Assembly (NCBI GenBank): GCA_017619275.1 | Contig: JAFZSR010000076.1 | Coordinates: 1 to 64,000 of the forward strand | Origin: Prevotella sp. | GTDB taxonomy: Bacteria; Bacteroidota; Bacteroidia; Bacteroidales; Bacteroidaceae | Direction of reading: 5' to 3' | Length of the DNA stretch: 64,000 nt | Shown here: piece by piece, positions 3,580-23,229 of the stretch | Numbering within the stretch: the stretch's first letter is position 1 | How the letters are laid out: the number at the start of each line of letters is the position of its first letter | Translations under genes and position numbers: made by a program | Notes under the pieces: model-generated | The model's database searches: none | What the model saw: only the letters and a program-made list of their open reading frames with translations | What the model was told of the DNA's origin: nothing

Positions 3580-6500
3580 TTATCTGGCAAGAGCCAAGTC
3601 AATGAGCAAAACGGCGGTTTCGGGTTCTTCCCTTGGGGCGTCCTTTGCTTTCCATGCCACTACGAAGCGCACAGTGGCGGAACGGACGGTGTAGCCTTTT
3701 TCTTTCCACGACATCAGCGTCGCCCTCATACTCGTCGACAATTTGGCTACTGCCTTATGAGAAGTGGGAACGATGAAACAACTATCCTCCAGACTCAATG
3801 TATCGCCACTCCGCAGTGCCAACACTTCTTGTTTGATGGGTTTGAAAAAATCGAGGAAAACGTCTTTATGCGACAGTTGCAGCACGATTTCGTCGGGCAT
3901 GGGGTAGTGGTTACGATTCTCGTAGCGTTGGTCGACAGGAAGACGTGCAAAGAGGTCGCTATTGGTATGGATGAACAGGCGTTTCTTGGCGCGGGTCATG
4001 CCTACGTAATATTGACGAAACAGCTTTTCGTCTTTATAGAGGTTGTCGGCAATAAGCATGTACACATCGTCGAACTCACGGCCCTTTGCCTTGTGAATGG
4101 TGGACACGACAACCTCGGCCTTGTCGGCATCGCAGAAGTCTTCAACAGCCGACTCAAAGACGAAATCCCAGAGGTCGGTGCGGTATTTGGTGCGATGGGT
4201 CTGCTCAAACAGCTCTGTGCAACGTCTAACTAGCGATATGCATTGGCTCCCGTCGTAAATCTCGAAGGTGGCGCGTTTCGCCTCCTCCCACAATTCATCG
4301 GGAATGAGCGGGGTGCTTGACCGTTTGTCGATAAACTTCATCAGGTACTTTATCTCGGCCAGGTTGGAAAAGCGGAAGCCCTCCATCGATTGCACCAGTT
4401 TGCCCTGAATGCCGTGCTTCCGCAAAAGGGCCATGAGTGTCACTGCCTCCTCGTTCGTTTGAGTTAATACATACGTGGTGCCGCTGCCTCGACGAGCCAT
4501 CAAGTCTTCCACTAGGGGCTGATACATGTATGGCGACGAATGGCGTGTCAGCGCTACGCATCCGTCCTCCTTGCTCATGGAGACGATGGGCGTGGATTTC
4601 ATTCGCTTGCAAATACCGGCGACGAAAGCGTTGGCAAAATCCACCACATGATGGGAACTGCGATAGTTCTCGGTCATCTCTATGAAACGGCTGCCTGGTT
4701 CTTTGGACAATTGAAAAAGGTATTGAGCGTTGGAACCGCGGAACTCGAAGATGTTCTGGTCGTCGTCGCCCACCGCTATTACCCGCATCTCCTCATTGTT
4801 GTTCATCAATGCCGTAACAAGTGCATATTCCTCGGCGCTCATGTCCTGCGCCTCGTCGATGACCAACACCGTCTTGCCTATTTTGTTGGGTTCCGCCTCG
4901 CCCTGATTGATCATCTCTGCGGCCCTTGCCACCACGTCCTTTGCGTCTTCCAAATTACCAATGCGCCCCAACAGGTCGAAGCTATAGGAATGGAAGGTTT
5001 TGATTTCCACATAATAGGCGGCTTCACCAATCAGGCTTATCAACCGCTGCTTGAACTCCGTAGCGGCCGCCCGCGAGAAGGTCAGCATCAGCAGTTGCTC
5101 GTGCTTCACGTCTTCAAGCAAGAGGAGCGATGCCAGCTTGTGAACCAGTACCCGCGTCTTCCCGCTGCCAGGCCCCGCCGCCACGACAATGCAACGCGAT
5201 TCCTTGTCGGAGATGATTTCCTTCTGTCGTTCAGACAACTGGGCGAAGAGCTTCTGATATTTCTTAGGCGTGATATTACGTTGAATCTCGCGAATGCGTT
5301 CGCCCTTGAAATATTTGGTGACGAAACGCTTGTAGTCCATTTGGAAATAGTCCTGCACATATTGTTGTGCGGCCTGATAGCTACGCACCATCAGGTTGGC
5401 GTATTCGCCAACAATATGCACCTGTTGAATCTTCTGCTTGTAGAACTCGTCGAGCATGCGGTAGTCTTCCTGTTTATACCGCAGCTTCATGTCCTTCAGC
5501 CGTTGGATGCTCATGGCATTATAGAGTACCATGAAACCGCCGTCAAGTTTCAATGCCCCGATGTTCGACAGATAAAGCAGCGCCTCTTCCACATCTTCAA
5601 TTTGTGCATTCTCCAATGAGCCGAAAAGCATTTGATTGTTGGCCTTGACCTGGTTCAACAGGTCTACAATGGAGAACTGCACCATCTTGCTTTGAGCGTC
5701 TTCTTTATCGGACATCTGACCGTAGAGCCATTCCAAAGCAAAGCGGCAAATCGCCCACCGCAGCTCGCTGCGGCCGATGGTCGGGTCGATGTCTGCCAGC
5801 CGTTTCATCTTGATGTTCCGGGCTGGGTCTTCTTGTTTTCGGATATATCCCTTTACGGTGAGGAAATAGAGTAGGGTGCGAATGCTCTTCTCGTTGGAGG
5901 TGGCGATGCCGCTGTTCACCGCATCGTCGTTCAGTTGCTTATAGGATATGATGAGGCCGCTGTCGGGGATGTGTTGCAGGATGTATTTCTCGAGTTTGGC
6001 GAAACGTTCAAGCAGCAACATCGACTTGCGTTCCGTAGCACCCGCATCCTGGAGATAGGCCGTGATGTCTTTGCTGTCGGATAGAATGCCCTCCTGCCGC
6101 ATTCGCACAACAGCTGAAACCACCTCATTTCTGGTCAGTCCGAGAATGTCGGCCAGATAGTCTACTCTCGACTCTGCCTCAGCATCCTGCGCCTTGGCGA
6201 TATGTTTCCGCGAAATCAATGACTTGATGATTCTGATGGCTTTTTCTCGGTCCTCCTGGTCGAAAAGCACCGACGCCGTGATGCGCTGTCGGGCCTCGTC
6301 CATATTTCTGACTGCGATGCCCGTGGCATAAACGTGGGGCATATTGTTTCCCCGCTCCAGATAGCCAGCCTGTTCTAATGCTGCAATGGCAGTTCGTACG
6401 CGGGTTTCAATGTCTGGAGCTGTGTCGCCCCACCCAGCCGAGCGGGCAATCTCCAAAGAGGAGCAACTGACCTGTGGCCGTTGTCTGGTCATCTTCTTCA

Positions 6501-8364
6501 CTGCCATCCATACCTGTTGAATCTCGCTGATGCTGAGTTTCGTCTGATTCAACAGCACAAAGTGCTTGTCAAGGTCGCTTTCGCTGTAGAGCACATAGCA
6601 CCGGGCACTGAGTTGTGGGTCGCGTCCAGCCCTTCCTGCTTCTTGGACATAATTCTCCAGAGAGTCGGAGATGTTGTAGTGCACCACCAGGCCTACATCT
6701 TTCTTGTCGACACCCATACCAAAGGCCGATGTGGCCACAATGATGCGCACACGCCCCGACATAAACTCATCCTGATTGGCAATTTTCTGGTCGGTATCCA
6801 TCTTGCCGTTGAATGGCAGGGCACGGTAACCGTCGCGTGTCAATCGTGCCGACAGTTCATGCGTACGACGGGTACGGGCCACATAGACAATGGCTGGGCA
6901 ATCGTATTCAGAAAGTAGCGCTCTCAGCTTTTGATACTTGTCTTCATCGGTGTCGGCATGAATCACAACGTAATGAAGGTTGGTGCGGGTGGCTTTCGAG
7001 GCATAGATGTCCAAGTTGAGCCATAGCGTCTGTTTGAAGTAGTCGCAGATGTCCTGTATTACCTTAGGCTTGGCTGTAGCCGTAAAGCACGATACGGGTA
7101 TGGCTTGCTTGCAGCCCTTCTTTTGCTGGTATTCGCGAATAAACTTTCCGATGTAAAGGTAATCAACGCGAAAGTCCTGACCCCACGCCGAGAAGCAATG
7201 GGCCTCGTCGATGACGAAGCGCACCACGTGGCGAGCCAACAGAATCTTTTCGATGGTCTTCGAGCGAAGCATCTCCGGGGCTATATATAATAAGGAGGCC
7301 TCGCCGTCTTGCACCCGTTGGATGGCTAATGAGCGAGTGATGGGGTCGAGCAATCCGTTGATGGTGACGGCATCGGCGATGCCCCTTTCTGCAAGATTGT
7401 CCACTTGGTCTTTCATCAACGACTGCAAAGGGGAAATCACCACCGTCAGTCCATGCACCGTGCGGCCCGCCATCAGTGCCGGCAACTGGAATGTCAGCGA
7501 CTTGCCGCCACCCGTGGGGAATATTGCCAACAACGACCGTCCTTCAACAGCCGCCTTTGCCGCCCGCTCCTGCAGCGGCTCACCCTCGTAGGTGCGAAAT
7601 TGGTCATAGCCGAAGAATGCCTTCAGGTTATTGTGAATGTCCAAGAAATGATTGCAGTATTCGCAGTCGGGTTCCGAACAATGGCGCTGACGCAAAACGC
7701 TCATCACATATTCCACCCCAGGATAGTTGTGCAGCACCCAGCCAGGTGTGATAGATCGCTCGTCGGTAGTGTCGATGAGCGACAGGGCGTAGGCCAGCTC
7801 TATGGGGAACTGCTCAATCAAGGCTGCAATATCGGCATATTGGCAGATGCGTCCTTTGTACTCGTTCCATATCAATCCCGACAAGTGAGCGGGAGCAGCT
7901 TTGGCTTCGACCATGTCGAGAAAACCTTGGAACTCCACTTTCCCTTGAAGCAAGGTGGAAAGTATTCTGCGCTTTCTGTCTGGCAACTGCTGCCAACAAG
8001 CTATCTCATCCATCAGCAGGTCGCGTGCCTTCTCGCAGTCGTTCACCGGATTGTTCATCTGCTCACTCATCAGCTTGTCGTCTTTCAGCAACCTATGGTA
8101 AGGACGCTCTGGAAAGAGCAACGGCGACATGTAGAGCGTGTCGACTAAGGGTATCTGCAAATCGCCCTCGGCAAAAAGATATTTAGCGTCGTGATGGACG
8201 ATGTTATGTCCGCAAAGAAAATCCACGTCATGCAGGAAAGCCATCAGTTCCTCTTTTGAGCAACCATGATAAACAGCTCCATCATATCGCAAAGCGCCGA
8301 TATCATGGATTCTGTGGTCGCTCAAACTGACCTCAACATCTACGATGGCATACTGCCCATTCAT
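3580..8364 (-). CDS. Exonuclease-RecQ-UvrD triple fusion helicase
   Basis: A 1594-residue protein carrying two helicase superfamilies. Residues 1-110 look like a DEDDh 3'-5' exonuclease: D9/E11 in the first motif, D59 in HNIVHHD, and YHRLLKD near 89. A RecQ-type SF2 core follows, with Walker A GGGKS near 285 and DEAHCFSAWGQDF near 386. The C-terminal third is SF1 (UvrD/Rep-like): GPGSGKT near 1063, DEAQDMS near 1168 and STIHKAKGREFDD near 1425. It probably processes DNA repair or recombination intermediates, combining unwinding with end trimming. It lies 12 bp after the AlkD-like gene, so it is probably co-transcribed with it and with the TfoX-like gene. Similar large RecQ-annotated proteins are known in Bacteroidota (general knowledge). 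The division of labour between the two motors is unknown. Confidence 0.88.
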   Translation of the reverse strand: MNGQYAIVDVEVSLSDHRIHDIGALRYDGAVYHGCSKEELMAFLHDVDFLCGHNIVHHDAKYLFAEGDLQIPLVDTLYMSPLLFPERPYHRLLKDDKLMSEQMNNPVNDCEKARDLLMDEIACWQQLPDRKRRILSTLLQGKVEFQGFLDMVEAKAAPAHLSGLIWNEYKGRICQYADIAALIEQFPIELAYALSLIDTTDERSITPGWVLHNYPGVEYVMSVLRQRHCSEPDCEYCNHFLDIHNNLKAFFGYDQFRTYEGEPLQERAAKAAVEGRSLLAIFPTGGGKSLTFQLPALMAGRTVHGLTVVISPLQSLMKDQVDNLAERGIADAVTINGLLDPITRSLAIQRVQDGEASLLYIAPEMLRSKTIEKILLARHVVRFVIDEAHCFSAWGQDFRVDYLYIGKFIREYQQKKGCKQAIPVSCFTATAKPKVIQDICDYFKQTLWLNLDIYASKATRTNLHYVVIHADTDEDKYQKLRALLSEYDCPAIVYVARTRRTHELSARLTRDGYRALPFNGKMDTDQKIANQDEFMSGRVRIIVATSAFGMGVDKKDVGLVVHYNISDSLENYVQEAGRAGRDPQLSARCYVLYSESDLDKHFVLLNQTKLSISEIQQVWMAVKKMTRQRPQVSCSSLEIARSAGWGDTAPDIETRVRTAIAALEQAGYLERGNNMPHVYATGIAVRNMDEARQRITASVLFDQEDREKAIRIIKSLISRKHIAKAQDAEAESRVDYLADILGLTRNEVVSAVVRMRQEGILSDSKDITAYLQDAGATERKSMLLLERFAKLEKYILQHIPDSGLIISYKQLNDDAVNSGIATSNEKSIRTLLYFLTVKGYIRKQEDPARNIKMKRLADIDPTIGRSELRWAICRFALEWLYGQMSDKEDAQSKMVQFSIVDLLNQVKANNQMLFGSLENAQIEDVEEALLYLSNIGALKLDGGFMVLYNAMSIQRLKDMKLRYKQEDYRMLDEFYKQKIQQVHIVGEYANLMVRSYQAAQQYVQDYFQMDYKRFVTKYFKGERIREIQRNITPKKYQKLFAQLSERQKEIISDKESRCIVVAAGPGSGKTRVLVHKLASLLLLEDVKHEQLLMLTFSRAAATEFKQRLISLIGEAAYYVEIKTFHSYSFDLLGRIGNLEDAKDVVARAAEMINQGEAEPNKIGKTVLVIDEAQDMSAEEYALVTALMNNNEEMRVIAVGDDDQNIFEFRGSNAQYLFQLSKEPGSRFIEMTENYRSSHHVVDFANAFVAGICKRMKSTPIVSMSKEDGCVALTRHSSPYMYQPLVEDLMARRGSGTTYVLTQTNEEAVTLMALLRKHGIQGKLVQSMEGFRFSNLAEIKYLMKFIDKRSSTPLIPDELWEEAKRATFEIYDGSQCISLVRRCTELFEQTHRTKYRTDLWDFVFESAVEDFCDADKAEVVVSTIHKAKGREFDDVYMLIADNLYKDEKLFRQYYVGMTRAKKRLFIHTNSDLFARLPVDQRYENRNHYPMPDEIVLQLSHKDVFLDFFKPIKQEVLALRSGDTLSLEDSCFIVPTSHKAVAKLSTSMRATLMSWKEKGYTVRSATVRFVVAWKAKDAPREEPETAVLLIDLALAR

Positions 8365-15532: not shown

Positions 15533-16447
15533 ATGAACGAAGATACTACCCTAAGGCCCGCTATGTCACAGCGCGAACTGGAGCTGAAGAAGGAAGCTGC
15601 ATCGGTTCAGCCGACGATGGCCATGCACAAGGCTCATGCTGTGGGAATGGCTTGTCCTCACTGTGGTGTGGTGAACGAACCCGAAGCCCGTTTTTGCGCT
15701 TCATGTGGTACGTCGCTGCATAGCAGCAAGTGTCCACATTGCGGTAGTGAACTTGATGCCGACGCCGACTTCTGCGAGTCGTGCCACCGTTATATTCGCC
15801 CTGATGTATGTTCATTCTGTGGTGCCAGTTTCAGCAAGGACGACATCTATTGCCCCGAGTGTGGCTCGCCTCGTGGTGGCATCGTCTGCCCAGCCTGTCA
15901 TGCGCTGAACGATTTCTCCTTCTGCAAGCAGTGTGGGCGTCCTCTTACTGCGGATGCCCGTCAGCTGATTGCCCAGCTACGCCAGCGCCCCGACTATCGG
16001 GAACTGGTGCGCTTGGCTCACGAATATGACGAACTGCAGATGCAGTTGCCCTACGACAACGATGCCGATTTGATGCACGATGAGGCCAGTCTGCAACTGC
16101 GCGACCGTGTGTTGAGGCTTTTGGCTGAAGATGCTGGCGTGGAGCCCCACGTTGTTCCCATGAAGCCGCGTCGGGTGTCGAAGGAGAATCTCGACAACCA
16201 AAAGAAAGACAAGTTGGAACTCATCTCGCGTCTGCTCGACCAGATGGCCGTCCCAGCCATGCCCTCGCCAGCCAAGGTGCGCAACTATGCCATGGCCCAA
16301 AAGCCCCAAGGGGTGAAGCTGGCATGGCGGTGCAACTACAAGCATGCCCTCCATAGCAGTCCCTGCGGATGTGCGAAGCCACAGCTGGGGGGCAAATGGG
16401 AGGTACTGGGACAACAATCCAACCAAGAAGTAAAGGACGACAAATAG
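15533..16447 (+). CDS. Four-zinc-ribbon protein with N-terminal DTTLRPA peptide
   Basis: 304 residues, no signal peptide, so cytoplasmic. Four CxxC-x(8-10)-CxxC ribbons follow in tandem: C41/44-C55/58, C67/70-C81/84, C93/96-C107/110 and C119/122-C131/134. A helical charged region (about 140-240) follows, and a C-terminal patch contains C267 and C278/C280. Residues 4-10 read DTTLRPA, repeated at residues 25-31 of the kinase encoded next. The zinc ribbons suggest a protein- or nucleic-acid-binding scaffold. I infer it is a kinase substrate: the TT pair would be phosphorylated and read by the FHA protein of the same operon. First gene, 9 bp before the kinase. Confidence 0.85.
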   Translation: MNEDTTLRPAMSQRELELKKEAASVQPTMAMHKAHAVGMACPHCGVVNEPEARFCASCGTSLHSSKCPHCGSELDADADFCESCHRYIRPDVCSFCGASFSKDDIYCPECGSPRGGIVCPACHALNDFSFCKQCGRPLTADARQLIAQLRQRPDYRELVRLAHEYDELQMQLPYDNDADLMHDEASLQLRDRVLRLLAEDAGVEPHVVPMKPRRVSKENLDNQKKDKLELISRLLDQMAVPAMPSPAKVRNYAMAQKPQGVKLAWRCNYKHALHSSPCGCAKPQLGGKWEVLGQQSNQEVKDDK

Positions 16448-16456
16448 ACCCTACTG

Positions 16457-19354
16457 ATGGACGACAATAATATAACCATACGAATGGCTGGCGGGAATCC
16501 TGGCAATACGGAACCCATCATCAACACCGACACCACGTTGCGTCCTGCCAGCGACACGTCAGGGAAAACATCCACCAACGATGCCTCGCCCAGTCTGTTT
16601 TATCTAAAAGACGAATGTTATCAGTTGGTTGACACCCTCAGCCAAAGTTCTGGCGAGGCACAGGTGTTTTTGGTGAGAAAAGAAGGCGACAACCAGGACC
16701 GTGTGTTGAAAGTGTACTATCCTAACTTCAATGTCGACAAACGGTTATCGCAGGTGGTGGCCAACTTTCAGTTTGAAATGATAGTCAAACTGTTCGACTA
16801 TGGCAAGACCTATATCGATGGCAAGCATCGTTACTATGAATTGATGGAGCATTTGCAAGGTGGCACGCTCCAGGACTACGACCTCAAGGGCGACTTGGTG
16901 CAGTTCCGCCGCATCGCGTTGCAGGCTGCCGCCGCCTTGGCCTATTGCCATCATCACGGGCTGTTGCACAAGGACATCAAGCCCTCCAATTTTTTCTTCC
17001 GCAATGCTGACCATCAGCAGCTGGTGCTTGGCGACTTTGGAATCTCTGCCCTGCGCGAAGAAAATGCAAATACTTACCACACCACGCAAGCCCGCACGCC
17101 CATCTATGCCGCTCCCGAGATGTATGCCGACGTTATCGACGGCAAGGTGGAGATCACCGAAGCGGCCGACTATTATTCGCTGGGCATCACCCTCTTCAGC
17201 TTGTGGTTAGGCGAAAGCCCCATGAGCAGCAACGAGCGTGTGATGATGCGCCAAAAGAGCGAGGGAAGGCTACCCCGAATGGCCGAGCTGCCCGACAGGG
17301 TGAGGGCACTGGTACAGGGGCTCACCGCCGTGAATCCACATAACCGTTGGGGATACGACCAAGTGGAACGCTGGTTTCAGGGCGAGGATGTGCCGGTCGA
17401 CCTCACGTCGCCATTCCTGCGTTACAAGAGTTTTGTTGTGGATCCCGAGGAAAACCTCGTGGCCGACAACGTGGAAGAACTGGTCCCTATGCTGGCCAGC
17501 CACGAACAGGTGGGCATCAACTATCTCTACAACGGGCGCATTGTGGCATGGCTTGAGAGCAGCGGCAACACCAAGATGTCGGAACTCATCAAGGACATCA
17601 TCACCAACCGGTATCCTGTCGATAAGAAGGCTGGCTTCATGAGCGCTCTTTACACCATGAATCCCGCTTTCCCCTACACCGACCTGCAGGGTAACAGCTG
17701 CAGCGACGTTCACAGTGTCGCGTTGGCCTTATTGGCGCAGCAACCGCAATATGGCATCTGCCTGCAGCGGCCCAACGACCCGCTTTTCCTTTGGCTTGAA
17801 ACTCATGTGGAGTGCGATATCAATCGGCTGCGTTCCTATTTCACTCCCGATGCCGACAGCCGTGTGGCGGTGCTGAAGTTGGTGTATGAGATAGACCCTG
17901 AGGTGCCGTTCTTGGCACGTCACCCTTCTTCCACCGTCAAGGAAATCAGTCATGCTTACGGATATTGTAATCTGAGCGATGACGATTGGCAGGCTTTATG
18001 CGACGGTCGTCTGTTGTCGTGGATGTATAGCCACGAAGACATGATGGCCTGCGAGTCGCTGCGCATTCTCACCCAACACAAGCCCTATTCGGTCCAGTTG
18101 GCCTACAAGGTGCTTTACAATTTGGACCGCGAGGCAGCCTACGACCTGCGCGAGGCTAATACGCCTGAGTTGGTGGGCCAATTGCTGGGCAATGAGCTAA
18201 TGCTGGCACAGCATTTGAGCGATACGGAATTTGCTGAGCAAATGCGGGATTATACCGACCCTGACGGGCGTTTCTTCTGTTACGCGCAGCTGCACGGATG
18301 GATTGCCTTGATGAGCGAGGCCACCCGCTGTTTCAATCTCTCGTCGGCTGAAAACCGCGACCGCCTCAGCGCCTATGACCTGCGCACAGCACTCTACCGT
18401 TTCTGCCGCATTTTGGGAGCCGTTCCCACTTATCAACTACCAAACGGCGTTGTGCTCACCGATTGTGCCAAACTCGATTTGGGGCAGGCGGCATCGCTGA
18501 AGACTGAACTGCGCAACGGTTCACTGGCCCAGTGGATGTCGGTGTTCTATCACGAAGACCCCACACAAGACTTCCAAGAGGAATACAGCTATGAGCGTAC
18601 CTTGGAAGCTTGGATTATGGCCGTGGGAAGCATCGACAGTCAACAGATTTACTATCGCCGCTTCACCAAAGCGTGCGAAGACACGAAGGAGCGCGTGGCC
18701 GAGGTGCGGCGGCAGTGGGAGAATTCGCGTGCCAAGGGTCGTTTGTGGCGTTCTGTGTTCTATGCGCTCAGTGGCTTGTGGATTTTGCTTGTGCTTGTCG
18801 TGGGTATCAGCGGGCGCAGCTATCTTTTCGACCACACGTTTATGGCCATTGCCCTGCCCCTGGGAGGAATGAGTGCTGTCATCGTGGGCGTTCATGCCTA
18901 CTTCAAGGGTATTGGCCCCATGCTTTCTACCATCATTGGACTGGTCGGCGCTGTCACCAGTTATATTCCAATCCTCCTTATGCAGGCTGTGCAAAACAGC
19001 CAACCCTCGTTGCTGAACTTTGTTGTCGTGGCCATCACGCTGGTTTATATGCTGGTGTGTCACCTGACGGCATTCAAGGAAAAGCATATCACCGAGAGCG
19101 ATGACATTAGGGAACTCTTCAAGGCAGATGACGTGAAATCGTCGCTGCTCGAACCACTCTACTATACGTTCAAGACCCGTTCACAGCGTTACAAGGGCAC
19201 AAAGTTTGGCATGCTCGATGAATTGAGCGACCATGTGAAATCCCTTTCTGGCGAGTCGGTGATGCACTATGTGCTGTGGTCGATGATGGTGCTGGTTTTG
19301 GTGCTGGAGTTCTGCATCTTTAGTGGCAAATTGCTTGATGCTCCATTGCCATAA
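16457..19354 (+). CDS. Membrane-anchored Hanks-type Ser/Thr protein kinase
   Basis: 965 residues. The kinase domain spans about 55-320: K85 (VLKVYYP), HKDIKPSN with D173, DFG at 193-195 and AAPE at 218-221, so all catalytic residues are present. The glycine-rich loop is weak (SQSSGEAQVF). Residues 320-765 form a long cytoplasmic helical region I do not recognise. From about 767 come four hydrophobic segments (for example LSGLWILLVLVVGI and MLSTIIGLVGAVTSYIPILL), and a fifth near the C-terminus (VLWSMMVLVLVLEFCIF). The N-terminal tail has DTTLRPA at 25-31 and a weaker ITIRMA at 6-11. The kinase probably phosphorylates itself and the upstream zinc-ribbon protein. Downstream gap to the AAA gene is 25 bp. 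Confidence 0.9.
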   Translation: MDDNNITIRMAGGNPGNTEPIINTDTTLRPASDTSGKTSTNDASPSLFYLKDECYQLVDTLSQSSGEAQVFLVRKEGDNQDRVLKVYYPNFNVDKRLSQVVANFQFEMIVKLFDYGKTYIDGKHRYYELMEHLQGGTLQDYDLKGDLVQFRRIALQAAAALAYCHHHGLLHKDIKPSNFFFRNADHQQLVLGDFGISALREENANTYHTTQARTPIYAAPEMYADVIDGKVEITEAADYYSLGITLFSLWLGESPMSSNERVMMRQKSEGRLPRMAELPDRVRALVQGLTAVNPHNRWGYDQVERWFQGEDVPVDLTSPFLRYKSFVVDPEENLVADNVEELVPMLASHEQVGINYLYNGRIVAWLESSGNTKMSELIKDIITNRYPVDKKAGFMSALYTMNPAFPYTDLQGNSCSDVHSVALALLAQQPQYGICLQRPNDPLFLWLETHVECDINRLRSYFTPDADSRVAVLKLVYEIDPEVPFLARHPSSTVKEISHAYGYCNLSDDDWQALCDGRLLSWMYSHEDMMACESLRILTQHKPYSVQLAYKVLYNLDREAAYDLREANTPELVGQLLGNELMLAQHLSDTEFAEQMRDYTDPDGRFFCYAQLHGWIALMSEATRCFNLSSAENRDRLSAYDLRTALYRFCRILGAVPTYQLPNGVVLTDCAKLDLGQAASLKTELRNGSLAQWMSVFYHEDPTQDFQEEYSYERTLEAWIMAVGSIDSQQIYYRRFTKACEDTKERVAEVRRQWENSRAKGRLWRSVFYALSGLWILLVLVVGISGRSYLFDHTFMAIALPLGGMSAVIVGVHAYFKGIGPMLSTIIGLVGAVTSYIPILLMQAVQNSQPSLLNFVVVAITLVYMLVCHLTAFKEKHITESDDIRELFKADDVKSSLLEPLYYTFKTRSQRYKGTKFGMLDELSDHVKSLSGESVMHYVLWSMMVLVLVLEFCIFSGKLLDAPLP

Positions 19355-19379: not shown

Positions 19380-22300
19380 ATGATTTGCAAATTCTGCAAT
19401 AGGGAAAACAGAAACGAGGCCAAGTTCTGCAAATGGTGCGGCGAACTCATTGAGACCCGCGCCCTCGACAGGCTGGTAGGCTTGGCCAACGTGAAGAACC
19501 AGCTGAAGACCATCGTCGATGCTTCTGCCTATCTGCGGTCGCGCACCAGCGTGGCATCGATGCGCCTGTCGGTCAATGCTATTATCATTGGCGAAACAGG
19601 TACGGGAAAGACAGCCTTGGCGGCCATCATCCGCGACTATTTCTTCCAGCACAAGATGATTGGCAAGCCCAAGCTCACCATGGTTGATGCCGTGGACTTC
19701 CAAAGATTCGTCGACAAGTGGGACGAGAATATCAGCAAGGCGAAAGGCGGCATCCTCTTCTTCGACAACGTGCAAAAGCTGTTGCCCGACAGATACAGTA
19801 ACCAGGTGAACCCGCTCGACAAGCTGTTTGTGGAGATGGGAAAATGGAATGGCGACCCCATCGTCATCATGGCTGGACTGCCCAAGGGACTCGACGACTT
19901 TCTGGAGAGCAACCCTGCCGTCACCAACCGTTTCAAGTACACTTTCCGTTTGCCCACGCCAAACTGTCAAGAACTTTGCGACATCGTGAAACTGGAGCTG
20001 AGCACGAAATACGGTGTCAACCGTTTCTCGCCCGAGGCCGACAAACGACTCTCCCGCTTCTTCAAGTATCAGATTAAAATAAAGGACGAGACCTTCGGCA
20101 ACGCCCATCTGGCCATGAAGACTGCCGAAGATATCTTCACCTCGTTCATCAGTCGAGGCGCCCAGAATGAGCAGGTGGAGAAAGACGACATCCAAGGCTA
20201 TGTGCCCGAGGAACGCTCTCTCGATGACATCTTGGGCGACCTTGACAGCTATATTGGCATGGGCGAGGTGAAGCATGCTGTCCGCGAGATTGCCTACGCC
20301 GTTCAGAACAGTGTCCAAAGGGCTGAACGCGGCTTGGGCGAGCAGGAGAAAATGTCGATGCACATCGTGCTCACTGGAAATCCAGGCACTGGCAAGACCA
20401 CTATCGCGCGCAAGCTGGGCGAAATCCTCGCAGCCATCGGCTATTTGGATTCCGGCCACGTTGTGGAGGTGGATCGCTCGAAGATGGTGAGTCCTTATCA
20501 GGGCGAGACGCCCAAGGTGGTGAACGCGCTCTGCGACAAGGCCATGGGTGGCATCCTCTTCGTTGACGAGGCCTACACACTGGCCCCCGTCAGTCAAGCC
20601 GGCGACCGCGACAACCAAGGTGCGCAGGCACTGGAGACGCTGATGAAGCGGATGGAGGACGACCGTGGTAAGTTTGTGGTCATTGCTGCGGGCTACCGCA
20701 CCGAGATGGACAATCTTTTCCGCGTCAACCCCGGCATGAAGAGCCGCTTCAACTATTTCCTGAACATCGACGACTACACGCCCGACGAGCTGTTCCATAT
20801 CATGCTCGTCTTTGCCAAGGAAAAGAAATACATCTTTGCTCCCGATGCCCAGGCATTGGCTCAGAAGATGATAGGCGAGCTGCACAAGCAACGCGACAAG
20901 GACTTCGCCAACGGACGCACCATGCGCTCGCTCTTCGACCAGATTTGCAAAAACCAGGCGAAGCGCTTGCAGGGCGGCGACATGCAGCTGATGACCAACG
21001 AGCAACTGATGACCATCATTGCCGAAGACATTCCATACGAGGCTCCAAAGGAGGTGGATTATACGGAGTGCCTGAAGAAGTTCGAGGGAATGGTGGGACT
21101 GGAAAGCGTGAAGCGCGAAGTGGGCAACCTCGCTGCTTTCCTGAATCTGCAGATTAAGCGTGGCGAGAACAATACTTTCCAAGGAAAGCATTATGTCTTT
21201 ACCGGCAATCCCGGCACGGGCAAGACCACCGTTGCCCGCATCATGGCCGATGTGTTCAAGACGCTTGGCATCCTCTCGCGCGGCCAGCTTGTCGAGGCCG
21301 ACCGTTCCAAACTCGTGGCTGGCTATTCCGGTCAGACGGCTATCAAAACCAACCAGCTCATCGACACGGCCATGGGCGGTGTGCTTTTCATCGACGAGGC
21401 CTACACGCTGAAGTCGAATGATAACGACTCCTTCGGTTCCGAAGCAATCGACACGCTTTTGAAGCGACTTGAGGACGACCGTGGCAAGTTCATCTGCATC
21501 GTTGCCGGATATACCGACCAGATGCACGACTTTATCGATGCCAACCCAGGATTGAAGAGCCGCTTCACCCAAACCATCCATTTCGATGACTATACCCCTG
21601 ACGAGTTGACGCAAATTTTCGTGAATCTGGCCAAGGCAAAGAACTTCACTATCGACGAGGCCACTCATGCCGCCATCCATCGTGAGTTTGAGCAGCTGTA
21701 TCTGCGGCGCGACAAGAACTTCGGCAATGCCCGCGAGGCACGTCGCATCTTCAACGAGTCGGTGGAGAAGCAGAGCCAGCGACTGGTGGAGCAGATGCAT
21801 TCGCCGGGCTTCAGCGAGGACGAGATGTTCCGTCTCACCATCAACGACCTGCCTACCGCCAAGGCGGCAACGGCACGTCCGCTCGACGAGGTACTCAACG
21901 AGCTCGACGAGTTCATCGGCATGCGTTCGGTAAAGAACAGTCTGCGCCGCTTGGCCGTGCAGAGCATGTTCATCAAGCAGCGTGCTGCCATGGGAGCTGG
22001 AAAGGTGCAGCAGATGGCCATGAATTTTGTGCTCACGGGCAATCCGGGCACAGGCAAGACTTCCATCGCCCGAAAGATGGGCGAGATACTGCAGTCGATG
22101 GACATCCTGCCCACCAACCACGTCATCGAGGCCAGCCGTGCCACGCTGGTGGGTAAATACATGGGCGAGACGCCAAAGATTGTGAATGCCATGTGCGACA
22201 AGGCCATGGGCGGCATCCTCTTCATCGACGAGGCCTATACGCTGAGCGACCAGAACGACCAATATGGCAAGGAGGCCATCGACACGTTGATGAAGCGCAT

Positions 22301-22700
22301 GGAGGACGACCGTGGAAAATTCGTGGTGATTGCCGCTGGCTATCAGGCACAGATGGACGAGTTCATGCAAGCCAACCCGGGACTGGCCAGCCGCTTCTCG
22401 CACCAGCTGCATATTGAGGACTATAATGAGGACGAGCTGCTGGCCATCTATAAGAAGATGGCACAAAAGGAGCAATACGTGCTGTCGCCGGCCGCCGAGT
22501 TTAAAGCCCTCAACATGATTTGCAAGATGTTGCTTCGGAAGGACGAGAACTTTGGCAATGCCCGTGAGATGCGCAACCTGCTCGACCAGACCGTGCAGCA
22601 GTTGTCGCAGCGCGTGGCCCAGCTGCCCCCCGAAAGCGTCACCAAGGAAACCTATCAGCTCATTCTTCCCGAAGACGTCCCCGAGCCTCAAAATGCCTAA
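19380..22700 (+). CDS. Tetra-AAA+ ATPase (four tandem CbbX/SpoVK-type modules) with zinc ribbon
   Basis: 1106 residues. An N-terminal ribbon (C3, C6, C17, C20) is followed by four AAA+ modules. Walker A: GETGTGKT 71-78, then GNPGTGKT at 333-340, 609-616 and 887-894. Walker B: FFDN at 127-130 in module 1, and DE at 396-397, 672-673 and 950-951 in modules 2-4. Module 1 therefore lacks the catalytic glutamate and is divergent; modules 2-4 are close to CbbX (the red-type Rubisco activase) and to C-terminal domains of ESX EccA proteins. Each module ends in a helical lid with a motif like NFGNAREARRIF. Proteins of this class remodel partner complexes. Here the partners are probably the kinase, zinc-ribbon and FHA proteins. 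An unbroken antisense frame across the gene is a composition artefact. Confidence 0.92.
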   Translation: MICKFCNRENRNEAKFCKWCGELIETRALDRLVGLANVKNQLKTIVDASAYLRSRTSVASMRLSVNAIIIGETGTGKTALAAIIRDYFFQHKMIGKPKLTMVDAVDFQRFVDKWDENISKAKGGILFFDNVQKLLPDRYSNQVNPLDKLFVEMGKWNGDPIVIMAGLPKGLDDFLESNPAVTNRFKYTFRLPTPNCQELCDIVKLELSTKYGVNRFSPEADKRLSRFFKYQIKIKDETFGNAHLAMKTAEDIFTSFISRGAQNEQVEKDDIQGYVPEERSLDDILGDLDSYIGMGEVKHAVREIAYAVQNSVQRAERGLGEQEKMSMHIVLTGNPGTGKTTIARKLGEILAAIGYLDSGHVVEVDRSKMVSPYQGETPKVVNALCDKAMGGILFVDEAYTLAPVSQAGDRDNQGAQALETLMKRMEDDRGKFVVIAAGYRTEMDNLFRVNPGMKSRFNYFLNIDDYTPDELFHIMLVFAKEKKYIFAPDAQALAQKMIGELHKQRDKDFANGRTMRSLFDQICKNQAKRLQGGDMQLMTNEQLMTIIAEDIPYEAPKEVDYTECLKKFEGMVGLESVKREVGNLAAFLNLQIKRGENNTFQGKHYVFTGNPGTGKTTVARIMADVFKTLGILSRGQLVEADRSKLVAGYSGQTAIKTNQLIDTAMGGVLFIDEAYTLKSNDNDSFGSEAIDTLLKRLEDDRGKFICIVAGYTDQMHDFIDANPGLKSRFTQTIHFDDYTPDELTQIFVNLAKAKNFTIDEATHAAIHREFEQLYLRRDKNFGNAREARRIFNESVEKQSQRLVEQMHSPGFSEDEMFRLTINDLPTAKAATARPLDEVLNELDEFIGMRSVKNSLRRLAVQSMFIKQRAAMGAGKVQQMAMNFVLTGNPGTGKTSIARKMGEILQSMDILPTNHVIEASRATLVGKYMGETPKIVNAMCDKAMGGILFIDEAYTLSDQNDQYGKEAIDTLMKRMEDDRGKFVVIAAGYQAQMDEFMQANPGLASRFSHQLHIEDYNEDELLAIYKKMAQKEQYVLSPAAEFKALNMICKMLLRKDENFGNAREMRNLLDQTVQQLSQRVAQLPPESVTKETYQLILPEDVPEPQNA

Positions 22701-22728: not shown

Positions 22729-23229
22729 ATGATTGTTTGTCCCAACTGTAAAGAAGAAATCGACGACGATTCCCGCTATTGCGACCAATGCGGCCAGTCG
22801 CTGCTCTTCTGCGAGCGATGTGGACGTGTGGGTATAGGGCGACGGTGCACCAGTTGTGGTGGACTCATGCTCTCGGCCAATGTGCATGCGCATACGGTCG
22901 CCACAACCGCACACAGGGTGGAGCCTGCCGTGCCACAGATCACGCTCTCTAACGACGAGCTGCACATACGCTTCACCGGTTCCGATGGTGCCATCATTGG
23001 CCGGCGACAAGGCCCCTACACTCAAATCTTCCATCAGCACATGTATGTCTCTGGCACGCATGCAAGGCTCAACTATAACCCTGGCTCTGGATGGACCGTC
23101 ACCGACATGCACTCCTCGAATGGAACCCGCCTCAATGGCCAGCCACTGCAGCCCGATGTGGTGGTGCCCATGAGGAATGGTGATACGCTCGTCATTGCCA
23201 ATGTGTCACTCCATGTCATCATCCGCTAA
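22729..23229 (+). CDS. Zinc-ribbon and FHA domain protein
   Basis: 166 residues. The N-terminus has two ribbons: C4/C7-C18/C21 and C28/C31-C40/C43. A FHA domain occupies about 70-166, with the phosphothreonine-binding residues in place: G91-R92, S108 and H111 (SGTHA), and N131-G132 (SSNGT). FHA domains bind phosphothreonine peptides. In this operon the obvious source of such peptides is the kinase, and the DTTLRPA tails of the kinase and first protein are the best candidate ligands. Last gene of the operon; metA starts 18 bp later and may be read through. Confidence 0.9.
   Translation: MIVCPNCKEEIDDDSRYCDQCGQSLLFCERCGRVGIGRRCTSCGGLMLSANVHAHTVATTAHRVEPAVPQITLSNDELHIRFTGSDGAIIGRRQGPYTQIFHQHMYVSGTHARLNYNPGSGWTVTDMHSSNGTRLNGQPLQPDVVVPMRNGDTLVIANVSLHVIIR

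Follow-up and report, generated by a model that had tools for sequence, protein, structure and literature searches.

In bacteria, FHA-domain proteins are known to be recruited to kinase tails or N-termini that carry phosphate. As given in the excerpts of the papers cited here, a phosphorylated flexible segment of the Mycobacterium kinase PknB docks the FHA protein FhaA (cited in PMC12077195), and in the type VI pathway PpkA-TssL-Fha a phosphothreonine near an N-terminus is bound by Fha via R30 and S46 (PMC3953482). The FHA domain of DgcB from Bdellovibrio binds the protein's own N-terminal EKpTSIV, in which Glu occupies −2 and Val occupies +3, and the phosphorylated T15 of OdhI fills the FHA pocket (both PMC6733907). 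GarA and OdhI carry an ETTS motif (PMC12321487), and from the PknG site T14 we infer that T15 of OdhI is the second threonine of the pair T14-T15. In TIFA, a terminal phosphothreonine binds the FHA domain of the next molecule and builds oligomers (PMC13283784). Here, we describe a locus in a 64,000-nucleotide stretch of Prevotella sp. DNA (assembly GCA_017619275.1, contig JAFZSR010000076.1, positions 1 to 64,000 of the forward strand; hereafter the window), where a tight plus-strand run of four genes codes for a zinc-ribbon protein, a Ser/Thr kinase, a CbxX/SpoVK/EccA-type AAA ATPase, and a zinc-ribbon-FHA protein, and where the first two of these proteins have the peptide DTTLRPA in common near their N-termini.

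Comparison with related loci points to [DE]-x-T-[ILMVF]-[RK], termed the strict motif in the following, as the probable phosphothreonine tag of a five-gene module that comprises the zinc ribbon, the kinase, the AAA ATPase, the zinc-ribbon-FHA protein, and a PP2C phosphatase. We favor a phosphothreonine docking tag because a threonine-only motif is kept in otherwise drifting tails and is common to proteins of an operon with a kinase, an FHA protein, and a PP2C. As for PknB and FhaA, recruitment of the FHA protein by the kinase tail is proposed, and the FHA domain of FhaA is among the fold matches of the window protein; the difference is that here one repeated, encoded motif is N-terminal and common to other operon proteins. 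The motif-bearing features of the window are:

15533..16447, plus strand: zinc-ribbon protein, 304 amino acids, double zinc ribbons (open reading frame; Pfam DZR, E=3.1e-20)
15542..15562, plus strand: tag copy 1, DTTLRPA, zinc-ribbon residues 4-10, with T6 (second T) as predicted phosphosite (sequence; homologous N-termini)
16457..19354, plus strand: Ser/Thr kinase, 965 amino acids (Pfam Pkinase, E=2.3e-30)
16457..16597, plus strand: N-terminal tail of the kinase, about 47 amino acids, fast evolving outside the motifs (tail comparisons)
16469..16489, plus strand: first tail motif NITIRMA, T7, with N replacing the acid at −2 (T7 invariant in alignment A1)
16529..16549, plus strand: tag copy 2, DTTLRPA, kinase residues 25-31, with T27 (second T) as predicted phosphosite (sequence; alignment A1)
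16658..17365, plus strand: catalytic domain of the kinase, residues 68-303 (Pfam)

The zinc-ribbon protein begins MNEDTTLRPA, and the N-terminal sequence of the kinase is MDDNNITIRMAGGNPGNTEPIINTDTTLRPASD. Both placements of DTTLRPA given in a sequence-only reading of this DNA were borne out, and its statement that the codons of the two copies differ at most positions proved too cautious, with all seven codons (9 of 21 bases) changed. A seven-residue word common to both N-termini (38 and 47 residues) compares with a maximum of five in 20,000 shuffles of both. In the own genome as a whole, a degenerate DNA pattern for D-x-T-phi-R-P was not generally enriched (14 matches versus 18 for the reversed pattern), and among these matches only the window pair lay, judged by eye, near the N-terminus of a plausible protein. 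At G000:C79:43562-43578 (L118), an open frame of 184 residues, measured from stop to stop, has ...VVDITLRPEDYQ as its end, with the tag close to the C-terminus; it is possibly an extra target or a chance occurrence. The peptide ITIRMA at kinase residues 6-11, previously noted as a weaker match, represents the same motif at an earlier tail position, with N at −2. T7, D25, and T27 were invariant in A1 (seven rows), not in the more diverse alignment A2; the placement of repeats is partly arbitrary when such tails are aligned.

One scan of species genomes yielded 80 loci (L004-L083). The tail statistics refer to 78 tails of the Prevotella group, including the window copy (L001) and an identical pair (L055/L056). 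L067, L075, and L079 were left out, as the script found no anchor; L079 is without its N-terminus, and in the other two tails T-x-R was present by eye. L095 was excluded from the Prevotella count and grouped with the distant set (79 tails denotes the 78 plus L095), and the loci L084-L094 were compared but not counted. The strict motif was found in 138 copies in 72 of the 78 tails, with a mean of 2.2 and a maximum of 8 copies in residue shuffles. Its serine version did not occur in the 78 tails versus 1.3 expected, serine making up 7% of the tail residues. For 63 representatives (including L095), 106 strict copies in 57 tails were counted versus 1.8 after shuffling, and one serine version versus 1.0. 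All 79 tails contained T-x-[RK], and anchoring on this pattern alone gave an acidic residue at −2 in 63% (background 15.5%) and an aliphatic one at +1 in 71% (background 20.5%); proline stood at +3 in 89 of 216 T-x-[RK] sites. Position −1 was free across 144 strict motifs (43 G, 17 T, 13 A, 13 K, and others). Because this position, held by the first T of DTTLRP, varies freely, the second T is the conserved one in these comparisons; from the earlier proposal that the second or first T is phosphorylated, the second is thus favored and the first falls on the free position.

Per 1000 residues, the 79 tails had 22.4 strict motifs; the corresponding densities were 0.08 for the kinase body, 0.09 for the AAA protein, 0.12 for PP2C, 0.22 for the FHA protein, and 0.37 for flanking open reading frames, the latter counted mechanically with shadow frames included. 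Among 400 sampled pairs, the median identity was 0.713 for the kinase body (its first 300 residues) and 0.32 for the tails; it was 0.295 for tails with the motifs cut out and 0.26 for shuffled ones. Apart from the motif, drift has left the tail sequences close to random. The refuting condition named with the sequence-only reading, absence of the motif from most homologues, was checked and did not hold for the kinase. The same searches gave 18 other kinases, none of which had the strict motif outside the catalytic domain, while one (L100) had it inside. Several tails consist of arrays, with DGTIRPA repeats in L012/L013, ERTTVMDG in L061, DKTIVA in L066, and DATLVGMS in L049. The tails of L046, L049, L051, L061, L066, and L077 are tandem T-x-V arrays, whose copy nearest to the kinase keeps T-x-R-P. 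The zinc-ribbon tag was missing in five of six loci with T-x-V arrays versus 13 of 71 others (Fisher P 0.002); a link between the arrays and loss of that tag is given no weight, the species being related.

The remaining genes of the run supply a predicted reader of the tag and the AAA ATPase:

19380..22700, plus strand: AAA ATPase of the CbxX/SpoVK/EccA type, 1106 amino acids (Pfam AAA and AAA_lid_6; TIGR02881, 777.6 bits)
22729..23229, plus strand: zinc-ribbon-FHA protein, 166 amino acids, predicted tag reader (PF00498, E=1.7e-14; AlphaFold2; Foldseek)
22993..23196, plus strand: FHA domain with the pocket residues R92, S108, and N131, together with G91, H111, and G132 (Pfam position; invariance)

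The FHA gene noted in the same operon by the sequence-only reading was thus confirmed as the fourth gene of the run. On the side of the kinase, the catalytic residues K85, H171, D173, N178, and D193 were invariant in the seven rows of A1; K85, D173, and D193-G195, which define a Hanks-type kinase, were all invariant there and had equivalents in A3. FHA residues G91, R92, S108, H111, N131, and G132 were invariant in 24 of 24 sequences, and all 73 Prevotella-group FHA proteins passed a regular expression for the pocket. The AlphaFold2 model of the window FHA protein (mean pLDDT 91.6) gave the DgcB FHA-tail complex as best Foldseek match (E=2.3e-6), followed by CEP170, RNF8, FhaA, MDC1, GarA, and OdhI. 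Three FHA-domain matches were found in the whole genome. The linker of the window FHA protein is short, the whole protein having 166 residues versus about 180-200 in most relatives (161 in L068).

In 70 of 73 loci, the FHA gene is followed by a PP2C gene; the regular expression used missed L067 and L075, whose next open reading frame also resembles PP2C, and L068 shows none. By eye or pattern, PP2C was also found after the FHA gene in G272, G362, G497, G543, G643, G688, G953, G1057, and G843, and none follows in G1015. In the window, 18 bases separate the FHA stop (23229) from metA (23248), where relatives carry a PP2C gene of approximately 250 codons. The window operon has lost PP2C; a copy elsewhere in the incomplete genome is possible, the nearest PP2C there (35% identical to that of G362, on another contig) being no close copy.

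Compared with GarA and OdhI, the window tag likewise has a threonine pair after an acidic residue; the ETTS motif is located on the FHA protein itself, whereas the window FHA protein is without such a tag and scores 21.4 bits with the OdhI family model (cut-off 200). With the type VI threonine phosphorylation pathway (PpkA, Fha, PppA) the module has a kinase, an FHA protein, and a phosphatase in common, but type VI models remained far below their cut-offs (TagH 34 versus 120.25 bits; ClpV 47.2 versus 884.95 bits). ArnA, an archaeal FHA protein, contains a zinc finger and works with other partners. A profile from alignment A4 aligned with it over positions 4-185, spanning zinc ribbon and FHA (5a8i, E=4.2e-5), a weak match in which no single stretch passes alone.

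In the zinc-ribbon protein the motif is looser. T-x-[RKN]-P occurred near the N-terminus in 59 of 77 zinc-ribbon proteins of the Prevotella group, with 1.9 expected from shuffles, and the strict motif in only 15 of 78.

A near kinase relative was present in 11 of 35 sampled genomes of the genus. Wider sampling gave matches in 6 of 393 genomes of the order, 7 of 395 of the phylum, 7 of 294 of a second Bacteroidota class, and 6 of 80, 3 of 79, and 1 of 9 genomes of three families, partly the same genomes. Of 15 more distant kinases, the outlying same-genus G362 among them, 10 had the strict motif, with carriers also in the other class. The tail of G056 has six strict copies (five DKTLKP, one DKTLRP), and that of G272 one copy plus a SGTQRP run. 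In the second class, the number of strict copies is between three and five in G497, G493, G543, G643, G688, G953, and G1057 (DKTIRPS, DKTVRAG, EKTIRLN, and others) and one in G1015. The first motif begins at residue 5 or 6 in seven of ten second-class kinases, e.g. MADDNDKTIRLD, close in place to NITIRMA of the window with NITIR at residues 5-9. By eye, the second-class repeat often seems to be longer than the tag in L147-L149 and L151, namely DKTVRAGxxIISA[DN] with a recurring I-I-S-A or similar.

In this class, the FHA protein itself ends with the tag: ...GEKTIRV (G497), ...SDATVRV (G643), ...LDKTVRI (G688), ...TEKTVRI (G543), ...DEKTVRL (G953), and ...PDRTVRL (G1057). A C-terminal [DE]xT[IV]R[VIL] was thus present in six of eight second-class FHA proteins, or in seven with the variant ...QDKTERV of G843; the FHA genes of G493 and G1019 lie off the fetched stretches and are outside the eight. 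In G843 (L160), the kinase tail reads EATERE and the FHA end DKTERV, with a common unusual E at +1, which hints, in one case, at joint drift of the tag copies. A scan of seven such genomes for the C-terminal tag gave 27 matches versus 26 with the reversed pattern, the number not being enriched; among the 27, four operon FHA proteins were the only frames that reached 200 amino acids and had arginine at +2. The scan pattern missed the FHA tag of G543, the G843 variant lies outside it, and the G493 FHA is off its contig. DgcB, the closest solved fold, binds a self-peptide; like its ligand, the second-class C-terminal tags combine an acidic residue at −2 with an aliphatic one (Val, Ile, or Leu) at +3. 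In the window tag, −2 is likewise acidic but +3 is proline, and DgcB differs in its cyclase output and N-terminal tag, the tag here being mainly on the kinase and, in the other class, at the FHA C-terminus. The likeness to TIFA, an animal protein, is limited to the tagged FHA proteins of the other class. Among 71 Prevotella-group FHA proteins, the strict motif did not occur in the first 60 residues, with three matches elsewhere in these proteins; the FHA linker of G272 contains STLRG.

A number of observations weigh against a conserved tag read by the operon FHA. Six of the 78 tails (L007, L011, L021, L040, L062, and L066) are without the strict motif, as are the distant kinases of G336 (DGTDVMP), G047 (DGTIIS), G362, G843, and G1019; each of them has, by eye, no more than a looser form. 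Position +2 drifts to V in the T-I-V-A or T-T-V-M arrays, and elsewhere R follows Q in G272 and V follows D in G336. A looser T-x-[RK]-P was found somewhere in 4 of the 18 control kinases. In the zinc ribbon, N replaces the basic residue at +2 in 27 of 77 proteins, and the tag was missing from all eight tested zinc ribbons outside L004-L083, including the same-genus G362; these eight have a readable N-terminus, the copies of G336, G643, G543, and G047 being shorter or cut, and the copy of G1057 showed no tag by eye. Because all eight zinc ribbons from outside lack it, the zinc-ribbon tag looks like a gain within the Prevotella group. A C-terminal tag was found in none of the 73 FHA proteins of the window's own class, nor in those of G056, G272, and G362, and in the second class the FHA of G1015 (L193) has none. 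At +3, the window's group mostly has proline where DgcB has an aliphatic residue, and the threonine-only rule could stem from the kinase rather than from the FHA domain. Finally, the AlphaFold2 model of the L149 FHA protein, computed unphosphorylated, placed its last seven residues with low confidence (mean pLDDT 54) and showed no docking of the tag, which, in a model of this state, should not count against self-docking of the C-terminal tag.

One rival explanation takes the motif to be no more than a sequence preferred by the kinase for phosphorylation, the tail tuning the kinase, the zinc ribbon being a plain substrate, and the FHA domain binding, e.g., the activation loop. A kinase consensus would equally be expected to be threonine-only, acidic at −2, aliphatic at +1, and basic at +2; the activation segment TTQARTP also has threonines, and the excerpted PMC12077195 describes the StkP juxtamembrane domain as phosphorylated on seven threonines in a genus without FHA domains. 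We nevertheless hold this account to be unlikely, as it alone leaves unexplained both the tag at the FHA C-terminus in the other class and the operon partnership with an FHA protein of invariant pocket. A linear docking motif acting independently of phosphorylation, binding for example the zinc ribbon or the AAA ATPase while kinase and FHA serve other targets, would fit a short conserved word within a fast-evolving tail and the zinc-ribbon and AAA genes in the same operon. We rate it as distinctly improbable, since the lack of serine versions, with its small expectation, is simpler under a phosphothreonine reader.

Near-identical tandem copies in some tails (L012, L061, and L066) would also arise by neutral low-complexity repeat expansion in a disordered tail, combined with a chance match in the zinc ribbon. 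That the same motif recurs across nearly unalignable tails and in three different proteins, with all window codons changed, makes this very improbable, and the shuffle tests speak against it as well. The O-glycosylation sequon of Bacteroidota is D-[ST]-[AILVMT], which DTT of the window happens to fit. With D at −1 of the conserved T in none of the 144 strict motifs, where T occupies this position in 17, the sequon was rejected and its probability is close to nil; moreover, the tail precedes the kinase domain and should be cytoplasmic. Assignment to an anti-phage defense system finds no specific support. The kinase matched defense-kinase models (best mad6, E=1.8e-36) and the AAA protein matched TRIP13 and IetA models, apparently via shared domains; the zinc-ribbon and FHA proteins matched none of the anti-phage defense models. 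The matches are confined to kinase and AAA proteins and non-specific, and NCBIfam MADS6 scored 90.8 bits versus a cut-off of 460.

Returning to the phosphothreonine docking tag, the observations are the motif, its conservation, its limitation to threonine, a kinase and an FHA pocket that are both intact, and the order of the genes. From them, we infer phosphorylation, FHA binding, clustering, and a role of the AAA ATPase as follows. The kinase, probably membrane-bound, would act on its own N-terminal tail, phosphorylating the second T of every motif there; within the Prevotella group, it would also modify the matching T near the zinc-ribbon N-terminus. The FHA protein would then dock on the phosphorylated sites, as already proposed in the sequence-only reading, whose interpretation is partly supported by the conserved motif and the intact pocket. 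An active kinase may in this way gather several FHA molecules and the zinc-ribbon protein, adjoining the AAA ATPase, and PP2C would reset the assembly, except in the window, where it is lost. In the other class, the C-terminal tag may let FHA molecules bind one another or themselves. More tentatively, and with less confidence than in the tag itself, the module might possess its own phosphothreonine alphabet, with up to approximately ten copies of the tag (including looser forms) and carriers switched in evolution between zinc ribbon and FHA protein; kinase activity might then set the valence of an FHA assembly, as a cluster or filament, around the membrane kinase and an AAA remodeler. As the kinase seems membrane-bound, our guess for the function is stress or envelope signaling.

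The window derives from a Prevotella-like metagenome-assembled genome (3.59 Mb, 85% complete), and its named relatives are mostly Prevotella, Prevotellaceae, and Xylanibacter ruminicola. Gene order is kept in relatives: of the 80 loci, 79 contain the zinc-ribbon gene and 73 the FHA gene, and the loci without one or the other are contigs ending early. In 69 of 73 loci, metA is one of the three genes that come next, flanking genes being tagged by simple patterns or by eye. Also by eye, a small Cys/His patch was recognized at the C-terminus of the zinc-ribbon protein, hydrophobic, membrane-like segments near the C-terminus of the kinase, and a zinc ribbon at the N-terminus of the AAA ATPase. Elsewhere in the window, a minus-strand gene (3580-8364) codes for a 1594-residue protein that resembles, by eye, an exonuclease-RecQ-UvrD-type helicase fusion.

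Among the matches listed in a search of open-licence literature by title and start of the abstract, there was no paper on this operon or motif. As far as our searches show, what is new within that literature is a repeated tag, encoded as such, whose carrier proteins within a single operon differ from class to class; in the same literature, such signaling in Bacteroidota seems, by our impression, little described. If the proposal is true, reader, writer, and eraser would be found in one operon together with the predicted site, with natural site variants across many species, and FHA specificity, kinase specificity, and multivalency would become directly testable in bacteria. The motif would then serve as a sequence rule for finding cognate kinase-FHA pairs.

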